From positions 1 through 64,000 of the forward strand of contig NZ_JAVBHX010000012.1 of NCBI RefSeq assembly GCF_030732065.1: a DNA stretch of 64,000 nt, written 5' to 3'. The translations under genes were made by a program, and so were the position numbers. The stretch is from Oceanimonas aquatica. GTDB lineage: Bacteria; Pseudomonadota; Gammaproteobacteria; Enterobacterales; Aeromonadaceae. Positions 4,557 to 49,829 of the stretch are shown here, one piece after another (the stretch's first letter is position 1; each line of letters begins with the position of its first letter). Below the pieces are notes generated by a model that ran no database searches, was not told the DNA's origin, and worked only from the letters and a program-made list of their open reading frames with translations.

Positions 4557-5099
4557 TTACTGCTGGTAACCGCAGCCCTTTTTCGGGCAATACAGGTGCC
4601 CCTTGCGCTCGGCCAGAATACCAAACCCGCACTCGGGACAGCGCTGGGCCATCGGCTTGTCATTGATGATATAGCGACAGCCAGGATAGGCATCGCAGGC
4701 ATAAAAGCGTTTGCCGTAGCGGGAGGTACGGGCCACCAGGTGGCCCTTTTCGCATACCGGGCAGGCCGGATCACTGTTGCCCTGATCGTTGATGTCGGCC
4801 ACATAGTGGCAGGCCGGGTAGTGAGAGCAGCCGATAAAGAGCCCGTAGCGCCCCTTGCGAATGGCCAGGGTATGGTCGCACAGCGGGCAGACACTGCCTT
4901 CCAGCGGCTTTTCAACGTCTTCATCGTGTTCGATAACTTTCAGCGGGCGCAGGTAGTCACAGTCGGGATAGGCGGAACAGCCAAGAAAGGCGCCATGCTT
5001 GCCATGGCGCAGTTGCAGGGGCTGGCCACATTCCGGGCAGGCCTCATCGGGCCGGGCCGTTGGCTTGCCACTGAACAGACTGGAATCGATTTTCGACAT
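4557..5099 (-). CDS. yrdD: Topoisomerase-type zinc-finger DNA-binding protein YrdD
   Basis: A 180-residue protein built almost entirely of four C4 zinc fingers like those at the C-terminus of topoisomerase I. The fingers begin with CPEC (20-23), CPLC, CPVC and CPEC, each closed by a second cysteine pair such as CSAYPDC. It probably binds single-stranded DNA or contacts RNA polymerase, as topoisomerase I fingers do; that is inference. The context dprA-smg-yrdD-tsaC is conserved in gammaproteobacteria. Confidence 0.87.
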   Translation of the reverse strand: MSKIDSSLFSGKPTARPDEACPECGQPLQLRHGKHGAFLGCSAYPDCDYLRPLKVIEHDEDVEKPLEGSVCPLCDHTLAIRKGRYGLFIGCSHYPACHYVADINDQGNSDPACPVCEKGHLVARTSRYGKRFYACDAYPGCRYIINDKPMAQRCPECGFGILAERKGHLYCPKKGCGYQQ

Positions 5100-5623: not shown

Positions 5624-6721
5624 TCAGCTCCTCCTCGCTCTGACATAACCTCCGGGCACGGATTCCACCCAACCGGCCAGTTCCAGCTCGACCAACCGGG
5701 TTAACACCTCATGCACCGGCTGCCGGCAACGATCCGCGATAACATCCAGCGCTGTTGCCTCTAAACCTACGGTATCCAACAAGTCCGGATAAGGCAATGA
5801 TTGCTCCGTGGCGGTATCGTGAATTTTGAGCGCCGCCGCAGAGAACCCGGCCAGCTCTTCCAGCACGTCGTTCGGCTCACACACCAGCTTGGCCCCTTGC
5901 CGAATGAGGTGATTACAGCCGGTCGCCTGAAGATTCTGCCGGGCGCCGGGCACGGCAAACACCTCCCGGTTCTGCTCCAGGGCAAAACGGGCGGTAATCA
6001 GCGAGCCGCTGCGTTTGGCGGCCTCCATCACCAGCACGCCCAGACTGAGACCGCTGATAATACGGTTACGGCGGGGAAACTGAAACGCCTGGGGTTTTTC
6101 CCAGGGATAACATTCCGACAGCAATGCGCCGCCGGCCTCGATAATGTGCCGGGCCAGGCGAGCATGACGCTTGGGATGGCACTGAGCCAGCCCGGAGCCG
6201 AACACCGCCAGGGTAATACCGCCCGCGTCCAGCGTGGCCTGATGGGCCAGACCATCAATGCCCATGGCCAGCCCCGAGGTAATGGCCAGCCCCGCCTGCA
6301 CCAGCGGCGGTAACAAGGTGCGCGTGTTTTCCTTGCCCACGTAGGACGGATGCCGGCTGCCCACCACAGCCAGCTGGGGCAGGTTCAGCACCTCAAGACG
6401 GCCTTCCACGAACAACAACAGGGGCGCGCCGGGCAGGCGGTTAAGCAGCGCCGGGTAGGCGTTATCGGCGCGCGTCAGTATATGGCGCTCGGGGCCGGCA
6501 TGAAGCCACTCCAGCAGACGCGCCAACAGGTCGTGCTGAGGCGCAAGCAGTGATGTTCGTAATTCCTCATCAATGCTGGCTTCACCCAGGCGAACGGCCT
6601 GCTGCCAGTCGGGCCCCAGCCGCTGCCGCAGTTTCCAGCCGCGCACCGGGCCCAGCCCCGGCGCCTGCTGCAAGGCCAGCCAGGGCAACAGAGGATGAGC
6701 GTCAGAGGCCGTGCTCGTCAT
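5624..6721 (-). CDS. dprA: DNA-processing protein DprA (Smf)
   Basis: A 365-residue protein that in naturally transformable bacteria binds incoming single-stranded DNA and loads RecA. An N-terminal helical region (about 10-80) precedes the Rossmann-like DprA core with the signatures [39 protein letters not shown] and RSGSLITA, and a C-terminal winged-helix-like domain (about 310-365). The start [12 protein letters not shown] lies 20 bases inside the end of the LysM gene, so the two overlap. Full length; whether the organism is competent cannot be told from this window. Confidence 0.93.
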
Positions 6722-7736
6722 ACTCCGGCTCGCCCAACTGGTAATGAGACTGTACCGGCTCCCGGCTGTCGAGCACCAGGGCCGCGCTGGCGTGATCATA
6801 GGTCTGAAACACCATCACTCGGGCCACCGGCAACGACGGCAGGGTGATCCCCTCTTCAGCCAGCGGTGAAGCGGGGCGGTACACACCGTAAAGATGGCCC
6901 GCGTGCAGGCCGTCATCATGGCCCCTGTTCAGCAACACCACATCATGGCGGGCCGCCACCGCACCCTGGTGTCCCATGGCCAGCACCCGGCCGTCGTTCA
7001 GGCCCGGTCCCGGGGCCGGCTGGTAAAACGCCGCCAGCGCCCGCTCGGACGCCAGTGGCAGCAGCACATCCCCCGGCCGCATCTCCCGGCTCAGGCTGCT
7101 GATGTGCACGCTGGCAAGACTTGGCTCCGGTTGGGCTCGCGCACTCACCGCTCCAGTCAGTACCGCCCGACGGCCGTAGGATGCGTGAGTACGCTCATCG
7201 GTCAGCTCCCCCATGTCCCGGTACACGCCATATAACTGGCCGGGTACCAATCGCCCCTCCACATAGGCCAGCTCGCCCTTGCGCAACAGGTCCCGGCCAT
7301 GCCGGTCGCCCAGCAGCACAGGTGCCGCGTCCAGCTCGGCGGAAGCAAGCAACCGGTGGCCCCGGGTATAGTTCATGATCGCGGCCAGTGGCACTGTGGC
7401 CACCGCCGCTTCGGCTCGTACCCGTGGCGAGAGCTTCACCACCCCCGCTTGTTCCTCGCCCTGACGCACCAGCCGGGGCTCACCGTTTACCCAGACAAGG
7501 GTAAGCCGGTCACCGGGATAGATAAGATGCGGGTTGGCCACCTGAGGGTTGGCCCGCCACAGTCGGGGCCAGCGCCAGGGGGACTTGAGGAACTGGGCGG
7601 AAATGTCCCAAAGGGTATCGCCCTTGCGCACCGTGTAGCTGGTGGGGTGATTGTCTTTCAGCGCCAGTGCCTGGGCCTGAACGGTGCCGGACAGCAAAAG
7701 CATGCCGGCCAAAATCAGTGCTCTCGGTTTTATCAT
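6702..7736 (-). CDS. LysM-domain secreted protein
   Basis: A 344-residue protein with a signal peptide (about 1-23, cut near VQAQA) and one LysM peptidoglycan-binding domain (about 33-80, YTVRKGDTLWDIS). The remaining 260 residues match the conserved C-terminal region of the LysM protein that sits next to dprA in many gammaproteobacteria; no catalytic motif is visible. It is likely periplasmic and cell-wall associated. The start follows GAGCAGGG. Its gene overlaps dprA and diverges from def-fmt-rsmB-trkA. Confidence 0.85.
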   Translation of the reverse strand: MIKPRALILAGMLLLSGTVQAQALALKDNHPTSYTVRKGDTLWDISAQFLKSPWRWPRLWRANPQVANPHLIYPGDRLTLVWVNGEPRLVRQGEEQAGVVKLSPRVRAEAAVATVPLAAIMNYTRGHRLLASAELDAAPVLLGDRHGRDLLRKGELAYVEGRLVPGQLYGVYRDMGELTDERTHASYGRRAVLTGAVSARAQPEPSLASVHISSLSREMRPGDVLLPLASERALAAFYQPAPGPGLNDGRVLAMGHQGAVAARHDVVLLNRGHDDGLHAGHLYGVYRPASPLAEEGITLPSLPVARVMVFQTYDHASAALVLDSREPVQSHYQLGEPEYDEHGL

Positions 7737-7878
7737 CCCTGCTCGCCTTGATGGAATCTGCTTTCGGTTGATGGGGTCGCAACCTGCCGCCATGCTGCTG
7801 GCGGCCAACTATTGCTGATCTTTGAGTTGCAAATGGCTAAAATACTGACAGAACCGAATACAGGAAAACACCGTTGTT

Positions 7879-8388
7879 ATGGCAAAAGTATTAGAAGTAT
7901 TGCGCTTTCCCGATGAACGCCTGCGTACCGTGGCCAAGCCGGTTGAGACCTTCAATCCGGAATTACAGACCATTGTAGATGATATGTTTGAGACCATGTA
8001 TGCCGAAGAAGGCATCGGTCTGGCCGCCACTCAGGTCGACATTCATCAGCGTTTAATCGTGATTGACGTGTCCGAAGATCGCCAGCACCCGCTGGTGCTG
8101 ATCAATCCGGAAATTCTGGAAGAACGCGGCAGCACCGGCATTGAGGAAGGCTGCCTGTCGGTGCCCGGCGCCCGCGCCCTGGTGCCCCGCGCCGAGTGGG
8201 TCAAGATCCGCGCCCAGGACCGCCACGGCGAGACCTTTGAGCTGGAAGCCGACGATCTGCTGGCCATCTGCATTCAGCACGAGATGGATCACCTGATGGG
8301 CAAGCTGTTTGTCGACTACCTGTCGCCGCTCAAACGCCAGCGCATTCGCCAGAAAATGGAAAAAATGGCCCGCCAGGAACAACGCTGA
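7879..8388 (+). CDS. def: Peptide deformylase
   Basis: A 169-residue metalloenzyme that removes the formyl group from nascent protein N-termini. All three motifs are present: GIGLAATQ (45-52), EGCLS (90-94; metal ligand Cys92) and HEMDH (134-138; ligands His134 and His138, catalytic Glu135). It is first in the def-fmt-rsmB-trkA-trkH run, 20 bases before fmt, which makes its substrate. Confidence 0.97.
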
Positions 8389-40591: not shown

Positions 40592-41965
40592 TCAGACCGA
40601 ACGCAGATACCAGTCATACTCCTGCGAGCTGACATGGCGCATAAACAGTTGCCGCTCGCCATAGCGGTTGGCGTGGTACACCCGGCAGAACTCCTGACCC
40701 AGGTATTCCGGCAGGATCTCGTTGCGTTGCCACTGATCCAGGGCCTGGATCCAGCTGTTGGGCAGACTGGGCGGGTGGCTGGCATAGGCGTTGCCGGTCA
40801 CCGGCTCGGGGGCCTTCGGTTGGTGAGTCAGGCCATAGTGAATGCCGGCCAGAATGCTGGCCACCAGCAGATAGGGGTTGGCATCGGCGCCGGCCACACG
40901 GTGCTCCAGCCGGCGGGCGGCAGGGTTACCGCCGGGCACACGCACCGCCACGGTGCGGTTGTCGGCACCCCAGGTCTGGCTCATGGGCACATAGTAACCG
41001 GGCTGAAAACGGCGGTAGCTGTTGGCATTGGGCGCAAACACCACCATGGACTCGGGCATCAGCGCCAGCACCCCGGCCACCGCCTGTTGCAGCAGCTCGC
41101 TGCCCAGGGCCTGCTCATCGTTACCGCAGAAAAGGTTGTTGCCGTCGCGGTCCACCAGGCTCACGTGAATATGAGTGCCGCTGCCCGCCTCCTGGTTGTA
41201 GGGCTTGGCCATAAAGGTGGCTTCCATGCTGTGGCGCGCCGCCACCCCCTTGATCAGCCGCTTGAGCAATACCGCCTCGTCGCAGGCCTGCATGGCGTCG
41301 GGTCTGTGCTTGAGGTTGATCTCGAACTGGCCCGGGGCGCACTCGGCAATGGCGGTGTCCACCGGCAGGTTCTGGGTCAGGGCCGACTGCTGAATGCTTT
41401 CGAGAAAATCGCAGTAGTCATCAAGATCCGACAGCGAATACACCTGACACTGACGATCCCGCTTGCCGCTCACCGGCGACACCGGCGGCTGCAACTGGTG
41501 CTCATCATCCCGTTCCCGATCGATCACATAAAACTCGGTTTCCACCGCCACCACCGGCGTCAGGCCCAGATCGGAAAAACGATCCAGCACCCGCTGCAGC
41601 ACATGGCGGGGATCATACACAAAGGGGCTGTGATCGTTTTCATACATGCTCATCAGCAGCTGGGCACAGGGTCTGTCCTGCCAGGGCACCCGGCTCAGGG
41701 TGCCGGGTACCGGAAAGCACAACCGGTCGCCTTCGCCCTGATCCAGCCCCAGCCCGGTTTCCTCAATGGTGTTGCCGTTAATGTCGAGGGCAAACAGCGA
41801 GGCCGGCAGACAGACCCCTTCCTCATAGGCCTTGAGCAGGCTGTCCCGGGGAATACGCTTGCCGCGGATCACCCCGTTGATGTCGCCGATCATAAGATCG
41901 ATGGAATTGATATCCGGGTTTCGTTCCAGAAATTCCCGGGCCTCTTGCATGCCCTTGTCACTCAT
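40592..41965 (-). CDS. puuA: Gamma-glutamylpolyamine synthetase (PuuA/SpuB type)
   Basis: A 457-residue glutamine-synthetase-fold enzyme that ligates glutamate to putrescine or a related amine with ATP. An N-terminal beta-grasp domain carries GDINGVIRGKRIP; the catalytic domain has VETEFYVID, the glutamate-site block EINLKHRPD, and KPYNQEAGSGTHIHVS. The start MSDKGMQEA follows GGAGG; the longer frame runs into the promoter. Divergent from puuD across 263 bases that hold a PuuR-box match. Confidence 0.92.
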   Translation of the reverse strand: MSDKGMQEAREFLERNPDINSIDLMIGDINGVIRGKRIPRDSLLKAYEEGVCLPASLFALDINGNTIEETGLGLDQGEGDRLCFPVPGTLSRVPWQDRPCAQLLMSMYENDHSPFVYDPRHVLQRVLDRFSDLGLTPVVAVETEFYVIDRERDDEHQLQPPVSPVSGKRDRQCQVYSLSDLDDYCDFLESIQQSALTQNLPVDTAIAECAPGQFEINLKHRPDAMQACDEAVLLKRLIKGVAARHSMEATFMAKPYNQEAGSGTHIHVSLVDRDGNNLFCGNDEQALGSELLQQAVAGVLALMPESMVVFAPNANSYRRFQPGYYVPMSQTWGADNRTVAVRVPGGNPAARRLEHRVAGADANPYLLVASILAGIHYGLTHQPKAPEPVTGNAYASHPPSLPNSWIQALDQWQRNEILPEYLGQEFCRVYHANRYGERQLFMRHVSSQEYDWYLRSV

Positions 41966-42013
41966 GGTGACCTCCATGTTGCGTTTTAATAACCATCCAG
42001 AATGCCATTTGTT

Positions 42014-42028
42014 ATAGGATAATGAACA
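42014..42028. promoter_or_regulatory. PuuR-type operator upstream of puuA
   Basis: ATAGGATAATGAACA agrees at 12 of 15 positions with the E. coli PuuR box AAAATATAATGAACA, including the whole ATAATGAACA core except for flanking bases. It lies about 50 bases before the puuA start in the puuA-puuD gap, and a puuR homologue is at 46155-46730. The gap also has direct repeats AAAGGTTAA and AAGGGTTAA near 42056 and 42077 of unknown meaning. Confidence 0.72.
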
Positions 42029-42228
42029 ATTCAAGACAATCACCCGGCCACCAAAAAGGTTAAATGGTTGTAAAAAAGGGTTAACCTCGTCACACTATTT
42101 AAACCTAAATACCGTTTAATTACGCTTTCACGCTGGATTTTGCGTCATTAGCATGCTTCCATGACCCTATCAACCCGACGGTGAGATCCGTTGAATATAT
42201 AAACCAACCGGTTTGAGCAGGTGTAAGC

Positions 42229-42990
42229 ATGGAAAGAATAATGCACAAGCCCCTGATTGGCGTGACTGCCTGTCAGCGACAGATTGAAGGGCACCATTGC
42301 CACATGGTGGTGAACAAGTACGTGGACGCCCTGCGCCATTCGGCGAAGGTGGAAGTGGTGCTGCTGCCGGCCCTGGCCGAAGGCCTGAACGAAGGGATCC
42401 TTGAACGCCTCGACGGCCTTTGCCTCACCGGCAGCTACAGCAATGTGGATCCGCGCCATTACGCCGCCGATCAGGATCACACCGAGTGCCGGCTGGATCC
42501 GGATCGGGACGGATCCGCGCTGTCTTTGATCCGCGCCGCCCGCCGGCTGCAACTGCCGCTGCTGGGGATTTGCCGCGGCCTGCAGGAAATGAACGTGGCC
42601 TACGGCGGCAACCTGCGCCAGCCGCTGCAGGAACTGCCCGGCCTGATGGATCATCGCGAGCCGGATACCGTCGGCGTCAACAACCACTACGAGCCGGCCC
42701 ACGCCCTCAGTCTGAATCCGGACGGCCTGCTGCACCGGCTTACCGGTGAGCTGAACTTTGAGGTGAACTCATTGCACCAGCAGGGCATTGACCGCCTCGG
42801 CGAGGGCCTGGTGGCCGAGGCCCTGGCGCCGGACGGCCTGGTGGAAGCCATCAGTGATCCCACCCTGCCCTTTGCTCTGGGCGTGCAGTGGCACCCGGAG
42901 TGGCGCACCGATGAACACCCGCTCTACGCCGCCATCTTTACCGCCTTTGGCGCCGCCTGCGCGAACTACCGCCAGCGCGTCAACGCCTGA
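42229..42990 (+). CDS. puuD: Gamma-glutamyl-GABA hydrolase (PuuD/SpuA type)
   Basis: A 253-residue class I glutamine-amidotransferase-like hydrolase that releases GABA from gamma-glutamyl-GABA. The catalytic triad is Cys115 (GICRGLQE), His222 and Glu224 (VQWHPEW). The sequence tracks E. coli PuuD, including NSLHQQG and SPDGLVEA-like blocks. An ATG at codon 5 is an alternative start. It completes the gamma-glutamyl polyamine route with puuA, spuC and puuC. Confidence 0.92.
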   Translation: MERIMHKPLIGVTACQRQIEGHHCHMVVNKYVDALRHSAKVEVVLLPALAEGLNEGILERLDGLCLTGSYSNVDPRHYAADQDHTECRLDPDRDGSALSLIRAARRLQLPLLGICRGLQEMNVAYGGNLRQPLQELPGLMDHREPDTVGVNNHYEPAHALSLNPDGLLHRLTGELNFEVNSLHQQGIDRLGEGLVAEALAPDGLVEAISDPTLPFALGVQWHPEWRTDEHPLYAAIFTAFGAACANYRQRVNA

Positions 42991-43044
42991 AGAAACTCGC
43001 TCGAACAAGAGGGTACAGGCCGTTGCCATCGCCGAGCATACAGG

Positions 43045-43060
43045 GGCGAGCTTGCTCGCT
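43045..43060. repeat. REP-like short palindrome
   Basis: GGCGAGCTTGCTCGCT in the puuD-spuC gap resembles the palindromic core of Pseudomonas-type REP elements (GCGGGCAAGCCCGC). A related unit lies at 46076-46092 after puuC. Confidence 0.5.
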
Positions 43061-43073
43061 AGCACCGAGCTTA

Positions 43074-43112
43074 TTGACTGACCGAACTTCCAGTGAAAGT
43101 TCGCAGCAGTCA
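43074..43112. repeat. Long interrupted hairpin in the puuD-spuC gap
   Basis: Outer arms TTGACTG (43074-43080) and CAGTCAA (43106-43112), inner arms CGAACTT (43083-43089) and AAGTTCG (43097-43103). It lies 85-120 bases before the spuC start. No T-run follows on the plus strand, so it is leader structure or an operator pair, not a terminator. Confidence 0.6.
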
Positions 43113-43196
43113 AAAAGTGAAGGTGGCAATTTATGCTGCGTGTTGGCGTGGCAATGGTCTGTACCTAAGCAACAGATGAACGAAAAGGACACCATC

Positions 43197-44558
43197 ATGC
43201 ATCAGTACAACACTCAAGAATTGCGCCAGCAGGACGGCCAGCACCACCTGCATCCCTTTACCGATACCAAGGATCTGGGCAGCAACAGCCGCATCATCAC
43301 CAGTGCCGAGGGCATCTATATTGTTGATTCACAAGGCAACCGCATTCTCGATGCCATGGCCGGCCTCTGGTGCGTGAACCTGGGCTATGGCCGCCAGGAG
43401 CTAGTGGACGCCGCCGCCGCCCAGATGACCGAGCTGCCCTACTACAACAACTTCTTCAAGACCGCCCACCCACCGGCGATCAAACTGGCCAAAAAGCTCA
43501 CCGAGCTGGCCCCCGAGCACATCAACCATGTGTTCTTTACCGGCTCCGGCTCCGAGTCCAACGACACGGTCGTGCGCATGGTGCGCCGCTACTGGCAGCT
43601 CAAGGGCCAGCCGGAAAAAACCGTGATCATCGGCCGGCGCAACGGCTACCACGGCTCCACCGTGGCCGGCGCCAGCCTGGGCGGCATGGCCCCCATGCAC
43701 GAGCAGGGCGGCCCCATGCTGGCGGACGTGGAGCACATCGCTCAGCCCTACTGGTTTGGCGAAGGCCGGGAAATGAGCCCGGAAGAATTCGGTCTGCTGG
43801 CGGCGCGTTCTCTGGAGCAGAAGATCAAGGAACTGGGTGTGGACAGGGTGGCGGCCTTTATTGCCGAGCCGGTGCAGGGTGCCGGCGGCGTGATCATTCC
43901 GCCCGAAAGCTACTGGCCCGAAATTCAGCGCATCTGCGATCACTACGGCATTTTGCTGATTGCCGACGAGGTGATCTGCGGCTTTGGCCGGCTGGGCCAA
44001 TGGTTCGGCAGCCAGCATTTCAATATCAAGCCCGATCTCATGCCCATCGCCAAGGGGCTGTCTTCCGGCTATCTGCCCATCGGCGGCGTGCTGGTGGGTG
44101 ATCGGGTGGCCGAGACCCTGATCGAGCAGGGCGGCGAGTTCTACCACGGCTTTACCTATTCCGGTCACCCGGCCTGCGCCGCCGTGGCCCTGCGCAATCT
44201 GGAGCTGATGGAAGAAGACGGGGTGCTGGAGCACGTGCGCGAAGTGGCCGCGCCCTACTTTGCCGAACGCTGGGCCAGCCTGGCGGATCACCCGCTGGTG
44301 GGCGAGGCCCGCAGTCTGGGACTGCTGGGTGCGCTGGAGCTGGTGGCCGACAAAACCACCCTGGCCCGTTTTGAGCCGGGTATCGGCGGCCGCTGTCGGG
44401 ACAACTGCTTTAACACCGGCATCGTCATGCGCTCCGTGGGCGAAACCATGGTGGTGTCGCCGCCCCTGGTGATCACCAGGCCCGAAATTGACGAGCTGGT
44501 ACGCCTGGCCCGGGAAAGCCTGGACACCACAGCCCGCCAGCTCGGCATCATGGACTGA
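43197..44558 (+). CDS. spuC: Polyamine:pyruvate aminotransferase (SpuC-like)
   Basis: A 453-residue class III PLP aminotransferase. PLP lysine Lys286 (IAKGLSSGYLP), Asp257 in IADEV, phosphate-binding GSGSESND (116-123). It closely resembles Pseudomonas SpuC, which transaminates putrescine or its gamma-glutamyl derivative with pyruvate. Start 43197 has AAAAGGAC upstream; longer starts at 43176 and 43023 lack a site. No puuB oxidase is present in the window, so this enzyme probably performs that step. 10 bases before puuC. Confidence 0.91.
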   Translation: MHQYNTQELRQQDGQHHLHPFTDTKDLGSNSRIITSAEGIYIVDSQGNRILDAMAGLWCVNLGYGRQELVDAAAAQMTELPYYNNFFKTAHPPAIKLAKKLTELAPEHINHVFFTGSGSESNDTVVRMVRRYWQLKGQPEKTVIIGRRNGYHGSTVAGASLGGMAPMHEQGGPMLADVEHIAQPYWFGEGREMSPEEFGLLAARSLEQKIKELGVDRVAAFIAEPVQGAGGVIIPPESYWPEIQRICDHYGILLIADEVICGFGRLGQWFGSQHFNIKPDLMPIAKGLSSGYLPIGGVLVGDRVAETLIEQGGEFYHGFTYSGHPACAAVALRNLELMEEDGVLEHVREVAAPYFAERWASLADHPLVGEARSLGLLGALELVADKTTLARFEPGIGGRCRDNCFNTGIVMRSVGETMVVSPPLVITRPEIDELVRLARESLDTTARQLGIMD

Positions 44559-44568
44559 GGAGGCGACC

Positions 44569-46062
44569 ATGACGCAACACACCCTTGCCCACTGGCAAGC
44601 CCTGAGTGAAGGACTGCGGCCCGAGGGCCGCGCCTTTATCAACGGCCGCTACTGCGAAGCCATTTCCGGCGAACGCTTTGCCAGTGTTAACCCGGCTACC
44701 GGCGCCCAACTGGCCGAGGTGGCCAGCTGTGACGAGCAGGACGCCGACCTGGCGGTGACCCACGCGCGCACCGCCCTGCCCCACTGGGCCGACCTGGCCC
44801 CGGCGGAGCGCAAACGCATTCTGCTGCAGTTCGCCAGTCTGGTAGAGCAACACGCCGAGGAGCTGGCGCTGCTGGAAACCCTGGATATGGGCAAGCCCAT
44901 CTCCAACAGCCTGGAAGTGGACCTGCCCGCGGCGGTGCGCTGCCTGCGCTGGAACGCCGAGGCCATCGACAAGGTATATGGCGAAATCGCCCCCACCGCC
45001 GCCAGCAGCCTGGGACTGGTGATCCGGGAACCCCTGGGCGTGGTGGCCGCCATCGTGCCCTGGAACTTTCCGCTGATGATGGCCTGCTGGAAAATTGCCC
45101 CGGCCCTGGCCGCCGGCAATACCGTAATCCTGAAGCCGTCGGAGAAGTCTCCGCTGAGTGCGCTGCGGCTGGCGGCGCTGGCCGATGAGGCCGGCCTGCC
45201 TGCCGGCGTGTTGCAGGTGCTGCCCGGCTACGGTCATACCGTAGGCAAGGCCCTGGCCCTGCACATGGACGTCAATGCCCTGGCCTTTACCGGCTCCACC
45301 GGCGTGGGCAAGCTGCTGACCCAGTATGCGGGCGAGTCCAACATGAAGCGCACCTTTATGGAGTGCGGCGGCAAGAGCGCAAATATCGTGTTTGCCGACG
45401 CCGGCAATCTGGATCGCGTGGCAGAGCAAGCGGCCCAGGCCATTTTCTACAACCAGGGCGAGGTGTGCATCGCCGGATCCCGGCTGCTGGTGGAAAATTC
45501 CATTAAAGATGAGCTGGTGGAGCGCATCCTGCACTTTGCAAGCGCCTGGCAACCCGGCAATCCATTGGATCCGGCCACCGCCATGGGGGCCATCGTCGAT
45601 GCCACCCAGCTCGACGGCATTGCCGGCCACGTAGCCGCGGCACACAAACAGGGCGCGCGCCTGCGCACCGGCGGCGAGCCGGTGAACATGAACGGCGGCC
45701 TGTATTTTGCCCCCACGGTGTTTGACAAGGTGGACAACGGCATGGCCCTGGCGCGGGAAGAGGTGTTCGGCCCGGTGCTGGCGGTGATCGGCTTTGACAG
45801 CGCCGACGAGGCGGTGGCCATCGCCAACGACTCCCCATACGGTCTGGCGGCGGCGGTCTGGACTCAAAACCTGGATCGCGCCCTGACCACGGCACGGCGG
45901 CTGGAATCGGGCCAGGTGTTCGTCAACAACTACGCCGGCGGCGACATGACGGTGCCCTTTGGCGGCTATAAGCAGTCCGGCAACGGCCGCGACAAGTCGC
46001 TGCACTCCCTGGCCGAATACAGCCAGCTGAAAACCACCTGGATAGAGTTCGGGGTGGGCTGA
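44569..46062 (+). CDS. puuC: Gamma-glutamyl-gamma-aminobutyraldehyde dehydrogenase PuuC
   Basis: A 497-residue NAD(P)+ aldehyde dehydrogenase. Oxyanion Asn166 (PWNFPLM), general base Glu265 (MECGGKS), nucleophile Cys300 (GEVCIAG). The C-terminus (GDMTVPFGGYKQSGNGRDKS) is almost that of E. coli PuuC. It oxidises the aldehyde made by the aminotransferase; PuuD then releases GABA. RBS GGAGG. Followed by three hairpins, the last a terminator. Confidence 0.93.
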   Translation: MTQHTLAHWQALSEGLRPEGRAFINGRYCEAISGERFASVNPATGAQLAEVASCDEQDADLAVTHARTALPHWADLAPAERKRILLQFASLVEQHAEELALLETLDMGKPISNSLEVDLPAAVRCLRWNAEAIDKVYGEIAPTAASSLGLVIREPLGVVAAIVPWNFPLMMACWKIAPALAAGNTVILKPSEKSPLSALRLAALADEAGLPAGVLQVLPGYGHTVGKALALHMDVNALAFTGSTGVGKLLTQYAGESNMKRTFMECGGKSANIVFADAGNLDRVAEQAAQAIFYNQGEVCIAGSRLLVENSIKDELVERILHFASAWQPGNPLDPATAMGAIVDATQLDGIAGHVAAAHKQGARLRTGGEPVNMNGGLYFAPTVFDKVDNGMALAREEVFGPVLAVIGFDSADEAVAIANDSPYGLAAAVWTQNLDRALTTARRLESGQVFVNNYAGGDMTVPFGGYKQSGNGRDKSLHSLAEYSQLKTTWIEFGVG

Positions 46063-46075
46063 TTAGCCCTGGAGC

Positions 46076-46112
46076 GCGGGCGGCTCGCCCGCAATTTGCC
46101 GCAATGCGGCAA
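46076..46112. repeat. Two short palindromes after puuC, one REP-like
   Basis: GCGGGC (46076-46081) with GCCCGC (46087-46092), then TTGCCGC (46096-46102) with GCGGCAA (46106-46112). The first resembles the REP-like unit at 43045. They precede the terminator and may block 3' exonucleases. Confidence 0.55.
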
Positions 46113-46123
46113 GGTATTCACAC

Positions 46124-46155
46124 ACCAAGGGCGCCAAAAGGCGCCCTTGGTTTTT
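46124..46155. terminator. Bidirectional terminator between puuC and puuR
   Basis: A 12-bp stem, ACCAAGGGCGCC (46124-46135) and GGCGCCCTTGGT (46140-46151), loop AAAA, then TTTT on the plus strand. It ends the puuD-spuC-puuC transcript; it abuts the puuR stop. Confidence 0.88.
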
Positions 46156-46730
46156 CAGAAATGCTTGGCGGGGGTGGAGCAGCTGACGATACGGCAGGGT
46201 TGATCGCTGTTGTTGCGAAAGCGGTGAGGCTGAGTGGTGGAAAAATAGTAGCTGTCGCCTTCCTTCAGCAGCCGGTGCTGAGCGCCGATAGTGATCTCGA
46301 TTTCCCCTTCGATCACCACGCCGGCTTCTTCACCGTGGTAGGCCATCATATCGTGGCCGGTGTCCACGCCGGGCGGATAGGTCTCCACAATAAAGGACAT
46401 GGCCCGGTTCTTGCGGTTGTAACCCACCAGTTTCAGCGACAAATTGCCGCTGCCCACGTCCTGCAGTTCCTCGGGGCTGAAAAAAATTTGATCGGTGTTT
46501 TCCAGATCCAGGGTAAAAAACTCTCCCACCGTCATGGGAATGCCGTCGAGGATCTTCTTCAGCGAGCTCACCGACGGGCTGACCTTGCCCTGTTCGATCA
46601 GCGACAGGCTGGAGTGAGTCACGCCGGTGCGTTTGGCCAGCTCCCGCTGGGAAATATTGCGCATCAGGCGCACCGCCTTCAGGCGGGTGCCCACATCGTT
46701 ATTGTCGTCGCCCTGCTTCGCCGTTGTCAT
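46155..46730 (-). CDS. puuR: XRE-cupin regulator PuuR
   Basis: A 191-residue repressor with an N-terminal XRE helix-turn-helix (about 13-68; SQRELAKRTGVTHSSLSLIEQGKVSPS) and a C-terminal cupin sensor (about 110-185). It closely resembles E. coli PuuR, the putrescine-responsive repressor of puu genes. The likely target is the ATAATGAACA box between puuA and puuD. It is convergent with puuC. Confidence 0.92.
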   Translation of the reverse strand: MTTAKQGDDNNDVGTRLKAVRLMRNISQRELAKRTGVTHSSLSLIEQGKVSPSVSSLKKILDGIPMTVGEFFTLDLENTDQIFFSPEELQDVGSGNLSLKLVGYNRKNRAMSFIVETYPPGVDTGHDMMAYHGEEAGVVIEGEIEITIGAQHRLLKEGDSYYFSTTQPHRFRNNSDQPCRIVSCSTPAKHF

Positions 46731-46810: not shown

Positions 46811-47809
46811 TTACAGCCCGGCCCGCTCCAGCCGGGAGGCCATGTCACCCAGACCGTCCAGCCCCTGAATATCCGTGGGCTGCAAATACAGCGAATAACG
46901 GGACAAATCGGCAAAGACCCGTGCAATCTCGGCCAGGTGGTTTTTTTCCTGTTCGCGACGTTGGGCCAGAAAGGCGCCGTCGGCTTCATCGGGCAAAATG
47001 CGGTTCACCACCAGCCCGGCCAGGGGCAGCTTTTCGTCTTTCAGCGCCGCCACCGCCCGCTCGGTTTCCAGTATCGGCAGCTTCTCAGGAGTGAGCACAA
47101 ACAAGAGCGCGGTCTGTTCACCGTCGGTCAGCAGCCGGCGAGTGCGCTGAAACAGCCGCTGACGTGCCAGCAGGGTTTCGGTAATGGATTTGGTGCGCTC
47201 GTCCATGCCTGCGGTTTCGTGGGCTCGCGGGTCGCCAAAGGGGCTGTCCACGTCCTTGCCCGGGGTCAGGTGATCCAGCACTTCACCCAGTTTTTCCGAA
47301 CGCTGGTTGCTTTTGAGCATGCCTTGGGTCCAGGCGGCTATGGCCTCGGGCAGGCTAAGCAGGCGCAGGGTGTGGCCGGTGGGGGCGGTGTCGAAAATCA
47401 CCAGATCGTGGGTTTGCAGGCCCTCTTCCATCACTCGGGCCATGCGCTCCAGCAGGGCCGCTTCCTGGGCCCCCGGCGACTGGCGGGTGAGGCGCATTTG
47501 CCGCTCCACCTCGCCGTACATCTCGGGCCGGGTAAAGCGCTTGAGTTGTTCCAGCACCCGGGCCAGGTGTTGCTCCACCTCGTGATCCGGGTCCAGCTCC
47601 AGGCCGTCGAGGTTGGGGGCCAGCCGGGTAATGGTATCGCCGATTTCACGGCCAAAGGCGTCGGCCAGGCTGTGGGCGGGATCGGTCGACACCAGCAGGC
47701 AGCGCTTGCCCCGGCGGGCCGCCAGCAGCGCCAGCGACGATGACACAGTGGTCTTGCCCACGCCGCCCTTGCCGCCCACCAGCAACACGCGCTTGTCGGT
47801 CAGTAACAT
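46811..47809 (-). CDS. ArsA/GET3-family ATPase
   Basis: A 332-residue single-domain ATPase with deviant Walker A GGKGGVGKTT (12-21), STDPAHSLADAF (switch-I region) and switch II DTAPTGHTLR (140-149). It has only one cysteine (Cys37), so it lacks both the arsenite-binding cysteines of ArsA and the zinc CXXC of eukaryotic GET3; arsenical pumping is unlikely. It is third in the cstA - Cys-Cys-tailed protein - ATPase unit, 68 bases after the second gene. A chaperone-like or assembly role for its neighbours is inference. Confidence 0.85.
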   Translation of the reverse strand: MLLTDKRVLLVGGKGGVGKTTVSSSLALLAARRGKRCLLVSTDPAHSLADAFGREIGDTITRLAPNLDGLELDPDHEVEQHLARVLEQLKRFTRPEMYGEVERQMRLTRQSPGAQEAALLERMARVMEEGLQTHDLVIFDTAPTGHTLRLLSLPEAIAAWTQGMLKSNQRSEKLGEVLDHLTPGKDVDSPFGDPRAHETAGMDERTKSITETLLARQRLFQRTRRLLTDGEQTALLFVLTPEKLPILETERAVAALKDEKLPLAGLVVNRILPDEADGAFLAQRREQEKNHLAEIARVFADLSRYSLYLQPTDIQGLDGLGDMASRLERAGL

Positions 47810-47828
47810 TCAATATCTCCAAACAGTA

Positions 47829-47850
47829 AAGCCGGCATTACAGCCGGCTT
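47829..47850. other. Hairpin between the Cys-Cys-tailed protein and ATPase genes
   Basis: AAGCCGGC (47829-47836) pairs with GCCGGCTT (47843-47850), loop ATTACA. On the minus strand it is followed only by TTTA, so it is a weak attenuator or stability element 20 bases before the ATPase start. Confidence 0.55.
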
Positions 47851-47877
47851 CGGGCAAACCACATCATCTGCCCCAAA

Positions 47878-48150
47878 TTAACAGCAGCGGAAGTGATCCA
47901 GCGGCGAGTGCTCCATGCCCATGCGCTTGTGCCAGTCGTGAAACCGCTCCAGCAGCAGGGGTTGCAGTTCCAGGGTGTAATAGGAGGCCGGGTTCGGCAC
48001 GCCCATCATTTCCGAGAACACCAGCAGCATAAAGAGGTCGTCTTCCTCGCGCCGGGCCCGGGCAATGGCCGCCCGGTAGGGCGCGTTGTACACCTCTTCC
48101 GCATATTGGCTGGCCCGGTTTATCCAGGCCAGCACCCGCTTGATTTTCAC
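47878..48150 (-). CDS. Small protein with C-terminal Cys-Cys (cory-CC-star-like)
   Basis: A 90-residue basic, helical protein that ends DHFRCC directly before the stop. It has no membrane segment; a conserved-looking centre reads REEDDLFMLLVFSEMMGVPNP. I believe it belongs to the family named cory-CC-star in NCBI annotation, from memory. The GTG start overlaps the cstA stop in GTGA and replaces longer frames inside cstA. A terminal Cys-Cys pair suggests metal or thiol chemistry, or attachment to a partner. Confidence 0.72.
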   Translation of the reverse strand: MKIKRVLAWINRASQYAEEVYNAPYRAAIARARREEDDLFMLLVFSEMMGVPNPASYYTLELQPLLLERFHDWHKRMGMEHSPLDHFRCC

Positions 48151-49829
48151 GAGTTGTCCTCGATCCCTTCGACCTTGCCGCTGCGCAGTTTGGTCAGGGT
48201 TGAGCCGCACTCCAGCGCCACCAGAATGGCCGCGGCCAGCACCACCAGATCCAGCGCAAACAGGAACCAGTTGGCCTGATCGTAAAAGCCCTTGAGCTGG
48301 ATCAGCAGCGCCAGCACCGTCATCACCAGCAGGAACAACAGCGGGATCAGGGTCACGAACATAGGCCGGCCCAGACGCGCCAGCATCACGGTGATCACCA
48401 GCAGGGTCAGACCCGCCAGCAACTGGTTGGTGGTACCAAACAGCGGCCAGATCAGCAGACCGCCGGAGCCGTCACCGCCGGAGCCAAAGGCCAGCAGCAA
48501 ACATGAAGCCACCGCCAGCAGGGTGGCCGGGGCCGCTTTCTGCATCCAGTTGATTTTGTAGATAACGCCCCATTCCTGAAAGATGTAGCGCTGCAACCGC
48601 AGGCCGGTGTCCATGGTGGTGCCGGCAAACAGCACCGCCATCACGGTGAGGATGGTTTGCGACAGCTCGATATCAAAGCCCAGGCCGTTGCTCAGAATGT
48701 TGGCGCCGCCTTGCACAAAGGCGGCCACCCCGCCCTGACCAAAGCCACTGTAAGTGGCCTGCCAGTCGGCCAAAGTGGCAAAGCCGGCGGTGGCGGCAAT
48801 AATGGCGGCCAGCGCCAGACAGCCCTCACCAATGGCACCGAAATAGCCCACAAAACGCAGGTCGGTTTCCTTGTCGAGCTGCTTGGAAGTGGTACCGGAC
48901 GACACCAGACCATGAAAGCCGGAGATGGCACCACAGGCGATGGTCACAAACAGCAGCGGCACCAGCGAGGGCGTGCCTTCGGGCACATTCTCGTTAAACG
49001 CCGGCGCCACCACCTCCGGGGCCGACAGCAGCACGGCGCCATAGAGCAGGCCCAGGCCCACAAACAATTGCAGACCGTTGATGTAGTCCCGGGGTTGCAG
49101 CAGCATCCATACCGGCAGCAGCGAGGCGATGGCGGCATAAACAAACAGCAGAATGATCCACTGGGCCTTGTCGGTCATGCCCATAAACATCTCGGGCAGC
49201 GCCAGCGGCACAGAAGGGCCGGCCCAGATCAGGGCATAGAGGGCCACCACGCCCACCACGGAAACGGTGAGCAGGCCAATCATTTTGCGGTAAATCAGCT
49301 GACCGATGATCAACGCCACCACAATGGCGCCCCATACCGGCACCACCGAAGTCTGGAACTTGGTCAGCAGGCCGGCGATGACCACGGCAAACACGGCGTT
49401 CACCATCAGCAGTACCAGGAAAATAACGATCATGAAAATGCTGCGGGCGCGCTTGCCAACCACATCCCCGGTGAGCGCGCCCACCGATTTGGCCTTGTTG
49501 CGGTTACTGGCCCAGATAGCGCCCGCATCGTGCACGCCGGCAAAGAAGATGGTGCCGAACACCACCCACAAAAAGGCGGGCACCCAGCCCCAGATCACCG
49601 CGATGGCCGGACCCACAATGGGCGCCGCCCCGGCTACCGACGTAAAATGGTGACCCCAGAGCACAAACTTGTTGGTGGGCACATAGTCCACCCCGTCTTC
49701 AAATTCATGGGCCGGCGTGCGAAAGCCGGGGTCCAGCCGAAAGATTTTTTCGGCCACGAATTTTGAATAAACAAAATAGCCGAGCGCCATGGCACCCAGC
49801 CCACACAACATCAGGAATATGGCATTCAT
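48147..49829 (-). CDS. cstA: CstA-family pyruvate/peptide transporter
   Basis: A 560-residue inner-membrane protein of the carbon starvation CstA family with about 15 helices. Conserved blocks include HHFTSVAGAAPIVGPAIAV, GVHDAGAIWASNRN, FHGLVSSGTTSKQL and FGTTNQLLAGL. The family imports pyruvate or peptides during carbon limitation. It is shorter than E. coli CstA (701) and BtsT (716). The start MNAIFLMLCG follows GAGAG. The 283 bases upstream (49830-50112) are A/T-rich promoter DNA with no motif I can name. It is first in the three-gene operon. Confidence 0.9.
   Translation of the reverse strand: MNAIFLMLCGLGAMALGYFVYSKFVAEKIFRLDPGFRTPAHEFEDGVDYVPTNKFVLWGHHFTSVAGAAPIVGPAIAVIWGWVPAFLWVVFGTIFFAGVHDAGAIWASNRNKAKSVGALTGDVVGKRARSIFMIVIFLVLLMVNAVFAVVIAGLLTKFQTSVVPVWGAIVVALIIGQLIYRKMIGLLTVSVVGVVALYALIWAGPSVPLALPEMFMGMTDKAQWIILLFVYAAIASLLPVWMLLQPRDYINGLQLFVGLGLLYGAVLLSAPEVVAPAFNENVPEGTPSLVPLLFVTIACGAISGFHGLVSSGTTSKQLDKETDLRFVGYFGAIGEGCLALAAIIAATAGFATLADWQATYSGFGQGGVAAFVQGGANILSNGLGFDIELSQTILTVMAVLFAGTTMDTGLRLQRYIFQEWGVIYKINWMQKAAPATLLAVASCLLLAFGSGGDGSGGLLIWPLFGTTNQLLAGLTLLVITVMLARLGRPMFVTLIPLLFLLVMTVLALLIQLKGFYDQANWFLFALDLVVLAAAILVALECGSTLTKLRSGKVEGIEDNS

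Follow-up and report, generated by a model that had tools for sequence, protein, structure and literature searches.

A conserved operon of CstA, a Cys-Cys-tailed protein and a GET3/ArsA-fold ATPase in Oceanimonas aquatica, and the putative roles of its products

The window analyzed here (64,000 nucleotides of Oceanimonas aquatica; contig NZ_JAVBHX010000012.1, positions 1 to 64,000 of the forward strand) contains on its minus strand three consecutive genes that encode a CstA family transporter, a 90-residue protein with a C-terminal Cys-Cys (CC) tail (cory-CC-star protein or CstX; Cory in the following) and a single-domain ATPase of the TRC40/GET3/ArsA family (ArsA in the following). The identity of this three-gene module is secure. 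The order cstA-cory-arsA was present in 93 of 94 compared loci, and the arrangement is therefore far beyond chance; indeed, the locus is not new, as it belongs to the CstA-CstX-ArsA operon type, which was published in 2010. With respect to function we tentatively favor, with somewhat more doubt than confidence, a carrier with a CC-tailed Cory subunit on which the GET3/ArsA-fold ATPase acts; the mechanism is one that we infer from the comparative data presented below.

Identity and conservation of the three-gene module

The cstA gene (49829-48147, minus strand) codes for a transporter of the short subtype with 560 residues (PF02554, 463.7 bits versus a cut-off of 27). Its TGA stop codon overlaps the GTG start codon of cory in the tetranucleotide GTGA (48150-48147, minus strand), as had already been recognized in an earlier, sequence-only reading of the window. 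The cory product (48150-47878, minus strand) ends in Arg-Cys-Cys-stop and matched the NCBIfam family NF041419, "cory-CC-star protein", over profile positions 2-80 of 80 (140.9 bits, cut-off 80). The arsA-like gene (47809-46811, minus strand; 332 residues) matched TIGR00345, the model of the TRC40/GET3/ArsA superfamily, with 268.6 bits (cut-off 135).

The 94 loci comprised the window, the best 80 of 330 relatives from a collection scan with the small protein (a selection that leans to close relatives), five genomes each from a class sample and a phylum sample, and three of six plasmid matches, the other three being Pseudochrobactrum records with the same identity. Some loci were truncated by contig ends, and the CstA of one locus (L032) and the ArsA of another (L039) were each split over two frames. 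In the 80 best scan relatives, the small gene was preceded by a CstA frame and followed by an ArsA frame without exception (80/80). Overlaps were present between cstA and cory in 41/94 loci and between cory and arsA in 32/93, with gene starts assigned by script. The sequence-only reading had placed the three genes in one unit and recommended a survey of the co-occurrence of their families; according to this survey, the trio is not confined to the present locus, and the three families stand together in the 93 loci mentioned above. The Cory loci include Alphaproteobacteria and one Bacillota plasmid, and Haloferax volcanii gave a Cory match below the cut-off; in even samples Cory was uncommon (6/274 genomes of the class and 7/398 of the phylum). 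On a Cytobacillus plasmid (L164), an additional hypothetical gene of 95 residues (4672-4959) is situated between cstA and cory. In two Natronospirillum loci (L052 and L066), a second CstA frame is located directly 3' of arsA (about 6400-8100), so that one Cory and one ATPase may serve two carriers there.

The operon type was described by Castillo & Saier in 2010, who documented 26 cases in which CstA is accompanied by an ArsA homologue, CstX of approximately 90 residues being present as well in 24; the operon-encoded ArsA was reported to be a single-domain protein of approximately 330 residues that is devoid of the arsenite-pump cysteines (PMC2963123). The window conforms to this description in the order of the genes and in the size of their products (560, 90 and 332 residues). 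One trio is common to both data sets: Idiomarina baltica OS145 (L018) possesses an ArsA of 338 residues beside a 90-residue cory, and Cluster 18 of the 2010 study lists the same strain with 338 residues (PMC2963123); the window ArsA, which may group with Clusters 14-18 of that study, matched the ArsA of this strain with 413 bits. In consequence, the proposal of the sequence-only reading that the locus represents an undescribed system has to be abandoned, and the small protein, too, belongs to a family already named in NCBIfam. Unlike the single transmembrane segment that is stated for the CstX of the archaeal Cluster 14, and that we do not take as defining, no such segment was present in any of the 94 Cory proteins; furthermore, YbdD is absent from the main text of the 2010 paper, and the passages on cysteines in it concern ArsA and arsenite, not the CC tail of CstX (PMC2963123). 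A full-text search of the open-licence literature returned no paper with the words "cory-CC-star", and no later study of the trio was among the matches listed there for CstA, ArsA, CstX, DUF466 and YjiX.

Cory in comparison with DUF466

The terminal Cys-Cys pair, which the sequence-only reading had pointed out for the window protein, proved to be invariant (94/94 Cory proteins, corresponding to 80 alignment rows once identical ends were removed); the C-terminal tripeptide is RCC in 50, KCC in 40, GCC in three and VCC in one of the proteins, and 88/94 contain no further cysteine. Hydropathy analysis revealed no transmembrane segment (average over 19 residues of at least 1.6 in 0/94; maximum of the window protein 1.02). 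The window protein matched no Pfam family at E values up to 1, and hence not PF04328 (DUF466/YbdD); its predicted model had no Foldseek match at an E value of 0.001.

CstA was found in 42 of 274 genomes of the class, of which 22 encoded DUF466, six Cory, 14 neither and none both proteins; the chance of zero overlap is 0.007 (hypergeometric, with the genomes treated as independent and their kinship ignored). Twelve additional Cory genomes likewise contained CstA and no DUF466, i.e. DUF466 was present in 0/18 Cory genomes. Small partner and CstA subtype go together: in the class sample, all 22 DUF466 genomes possessed the long and all six Cory genomes the short CstA. In a tree of 54 CstA proteins (including 22 of the 94 Cory-type proteins; long branches were flagged by the tool), the 22 DUF466-type proteins all fell to one side of a branch supported with 100/100; the same held for the 22 Cory-type proteins at a second branch, the support of which was weak (92/42).

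DUF466 resembles Cory as a small CC-ended protein encoded near cstA (RCC terminus in 21/22 and CPC in one; gene within 1 kb of cstA in 20/22). DUF466 proteins with a terminal Cys-Sec (Sec, selenocysteine) have been published, with a redox activity inferred by the authors (PMC4607533), and are listed as KCU-star (NF033934) in a 2026 review. Beyond the last four residues, however, a homology of Cory and DUF466 was not detected: the probabilities from five settings of hhalign lay between 0.0 and 1.5%, locally the best match was confined to the last four residues (FRCC), and one forced setting aligned 49 columns, still with 1.2%. Since both profiles are shallow (effective number of sequences, Neff, about 2.3 and 3.9), a distant homology could still exist. 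In E. coli, pyruvate uptake was reduced to 13% in a cstA mutant and to 20% in a ybdD mutant (PMC5847655). By analogy, Cory seems to replace the E. coli YbdD as the partner of CstA.

Besides the CstA subtype, the two systems differ in the presence of the ATPase. A full-length single-domain ArsA (defined as one match that covers almost the entire profile, within a reading frame of approximately 330-380 residues) was searched for in 26 CstA genomes; it was present in 5/6 Cory genomes, where it always adjoined cory, and absent from 14 tested of the 22 DUF466 genomes and from six tested of the 14 genomes with neither partner. Shorter P-loop matches, of which each of the 26 genomes had some, were disregarded; three of the 26 contained, at other sites, a longer ArsA with repeated matches. 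Within this sample, the ATPase tracks Cory, not CstA as such.

The ATPase

As stated in the sequence-only reading, the window ATPase retains its nucleotide motifs (P-loop, DPAHS and DTAPTGHT stretches) and contains a single cysteine, Cys37, the position of which is mostly occupied by Val in the relatives. Both P-loop lysines are Lys in 92/93 ATPase rows (in the remaining row this end is missing), the Asp of switch I is retained in 92/93, and the residues of the DTAP...GHT stretch are invariant except at one position. No cysteine is conserved, and 49/93 ATPases contain none at all; the zinc-binding CxxC motif of GET3 was found in 0/93. At the corresponding site, 70/93 rows read DG-x-F-L where two solved archaeal chains, which we take to be Get3, carry CEFC or CDFC. 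With no cysteine in 49/93 and no CxxC in any of the 93 proteins, the ATPase can be equated neither with an arsenite ATPase that is activated by thiols nor with a GET3 that is bridged by zinc, and the earlier reading is borne out on this point.

The arsenical pump ATPase ArsA was rejected as an identity for the window protein on three grounds: its score with the corresponding model TIGR04291 is far below the cut-off (149.9 versus 650 bits), it consists of a single domain, and conserved cysteines are missing; what the two have in common is the superfamily and the genetic link to a transporter. The zinc-bridged GET3 was rejected because of the absent CxxC motif. With GET3/TRC40 the ATPase shares the fold family and the ATPase motifs (TIGR00345), whereas it differs in the operon linkage to a carrier and in being accompanied by Cory, a protein without a membrane tail.

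The CstA carrier

The window CstA scored 233.7 bits with the equivalog model of the E. coli pyruvate symporter (NF011590), far under its cut-off of 1188; pyruvate as a substrate of this CstA would be an assumption by analogy. No solved structure was matched by sequence at E values up to 1. The best matches of the predicted model were ApcT, AdiC, NKCC1 and other carriers of the APC/LeuT fold (best E value 6e-5; template modelling scores in the upper rows approximately 0.35-0.5). A fold of this type has already been predicted for CstA (PMC10862720), and the present matches are counted only as agreement with that prediction.

One cysteine of CstA, Cys299 (in ACGAISGFH), is Cys in 93/93 Cory-type and 22/22 DUF466-type rows; a replacement by Ser or Gly was found only in three divergent CstA proteins without CC partner (L146, L147 and L148 of genomes G082, G110 and G227). 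Cys299 is a candidate contact of the tail; the pattern is compatible with a thiol contact and is not evidence of one. The genes of the three divergent proteins adjoin a glutamyl-tRNA reductase gene. The O. aquatica genome encodes a second CstA family protein of 522 residues (contig C19, 71940-73217; L149) that adjoins a LytTR response regulator; in the stretch fetched around it no CC-tailed open reading frame was present. In a further genome (G251, locus L153) the CstA matches are broken over several frames, two of them with in-frame stops, and the gene is apparently a pseudogene.

Proposed mechanism and alternative explanations

In the explanation that we favor, CstA would most likely transport a small carboxylate or a peptide as an ion-coupled carrier of the LeuT fold, and Cory would be its cytosolic partner in a role like that of YbdD (DUF466) for the E. 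coli CstA. The invariant Cys-Cys tail would represent the working part of Cory and would probably make a contact of redox or thiol type. The target of the ATPase, presumably a homodimer, would be Cory, alone or in complex with CstA, and not arsenite; the nucleotide cycle of the ATPase would serve loading, release or gating. The docking of the Cory tail on CstA and its handling by the ATPase are putative steps that we regard as plausible. A more far-reaching version, to which we attach little probability, holds that DUF466 and Cory, proteins without detectable kinship, share the [RK]-Cys-Cys-stop tail (Cys-Sec in some DUF466) as a redox-active docking element that would gate the respective CstA subtypes, perhaps against Cys299; the ATPase would have been added in the Cory branch to load, reset or release the tail, and a secondary transporter would thereby be switched under the control of ATP and thiols.

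Several observations weigh against the favored explanation. Genome G171 (locus L158) contains CstA and a divergent Cory (the one with the VCC end), with no adjoining ArsA and no full single-domain match elsewhere in the genome; the ATPase is therefore not strictly needed. Cys299 is also Cys in 7/10 CstA proteins without a CC partner nearby, and no CC-tailed open reading frame was found in the fetched stretch of the ten CstA loci that lack an adjacent Cory or DUF466; in consequence, neither the CC partner nor Cys299 defines the other. The predicted model of CstA is of low confidence (predicted local distance difference test, pLDDT, 60.6), and that of Cory, helical with a loose end, is weak (mean pLDDT 72; predicted template modelling score, pTM, 0.37). 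As no homology of Cory and DUF466 is detectable, the statement that Cory does what YbdD does is one of analogy; moreover, the authors of the E. coli study allow for indirect effects, and the contact between CstA and YbdD was left untested by them (PMC5847655). No laboratory experiment on the CstA-CstX-ArsA branch was found in the open-licence literature, and the same data also fit a role of ArsA as energizer.

The latter explanation was put forward by Castillo & Saier: the ATPase would energize CstA as ArsA does ArsB, so that transport by the carrier would be driven by ATP, and CstX/Cory would be the linker that couples the two; in the 2010 trees, CstA, CstX and ArsA co-evolved with few exceptions (PMC2963123). 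We consider it rather unlikely, but still a serious competitor of the favored explanation; it accounts for the conserved operon and for the retained ATPase motifs. Genome G171 would fit as well, given that ArsB is able to work with or without ArsA. However, none of the 14 tested DUF466 genomes contained a single-domain ArsA, and to our knowledge there is no ArsA beside cstA-ybdD of E. coli; if both small proteins are alike, coupling to an ATPase can therefore not be the general job of the CC-tailed partner. In addition, CstA appears to be a LeuT-fold protein according to its predicted model, and we know this fold only from gradient-driven or exchange carriers.

A targeting function in the manner of GET3, with the ATPase as the membrane escort of Cory or of newly made CstA and with a role in biogenesis only, seems improbable to us. 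Some Get3 proteins without CxxC still function (PMC10248533), which is in favor of targeting; the missing zinc motif argues against it. Cory itself is unlikely to be the tail-anchored client of a GET3-like ATPase, since its hydropathy profile reveals no membrane segment (0/94). The solved chain nearest to the window ATPase by sequence is 3zq6 (E value 6.5e-56), presumably an archaeal Get3, which would agree with targeting; yet the helical stretch that aligns to the client region is less hydrophobic (on average 23% ILMFVW) than in two archaeal chains (28% and 34%; hand-cut stretches).

Binding of a metal or metalloid by the CC tail, and a function of the trio in the handling of metals or arsenite, might be suggested by the facts that vicinal cysteines bind soft metals and that ArsD passes As(III) to ArsA via cysteines. 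We consider this highly improbable: the 49/93 ATPases without cysteine cannot take over a thiol-bound metal as ArsA does, no arsR and no arsenic resistance genes are reported for these operons by Castillo & Saier (PMC2963123), and the role of its counterpart DUF466 lies in the uptake of pyruvate (PMC5847655).

Neighboring genes and intergenic features

The gap between cory and arsA (47810..47877, minus strand; 68 base pairs) contains a weak hairpin at 47845-47830; hairpins of this kind were not enriched in the scanned stretch (8 found versus 6.0 expected from shuffles), and the sigma-54 pattern was not above chance (49 found versus 55.9 expected). A gene for a PuuR-like regulator (46155..46730, minus strand) is located 80 base pairs 3' of arsA; its product reached 173.2 bits with NF007408, i.e. 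less than the cut-off of 211, and was matched in 4/88 loci, all of close relatives. It is a neighbor outside the conserved module. The kinase gene next door was matched in 7/88 loci (six from close relatives, the seventh from a Pseudochrobactrum plasmid) and the regulator gene next door in 22/88, most of these matches being weak; on the basis of these three counts, a regulator common to the module was rejected. The operon is adjoined by genes that resemble those of putrescine utilization (40592-46730): a glutamine synthetase-like, a glutamine amidotransferase-like, an aminotransferase and an aldehyde dehydrogenase gene, named from reading the sequence, and the PuuR-like regulator gene, assigned by profile match.

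Implications

The trio constitutes a clean setting in which to ask for the role of a GET3/ArsA-fold ATPase beside a secondary carrier, and also why CstA carriers use small partners that end in Cys-Cys (or Cys-Sec). The comparison with DUF466 offers a direct handle on both, as the same kind of transporter is available with and without the ATPase.

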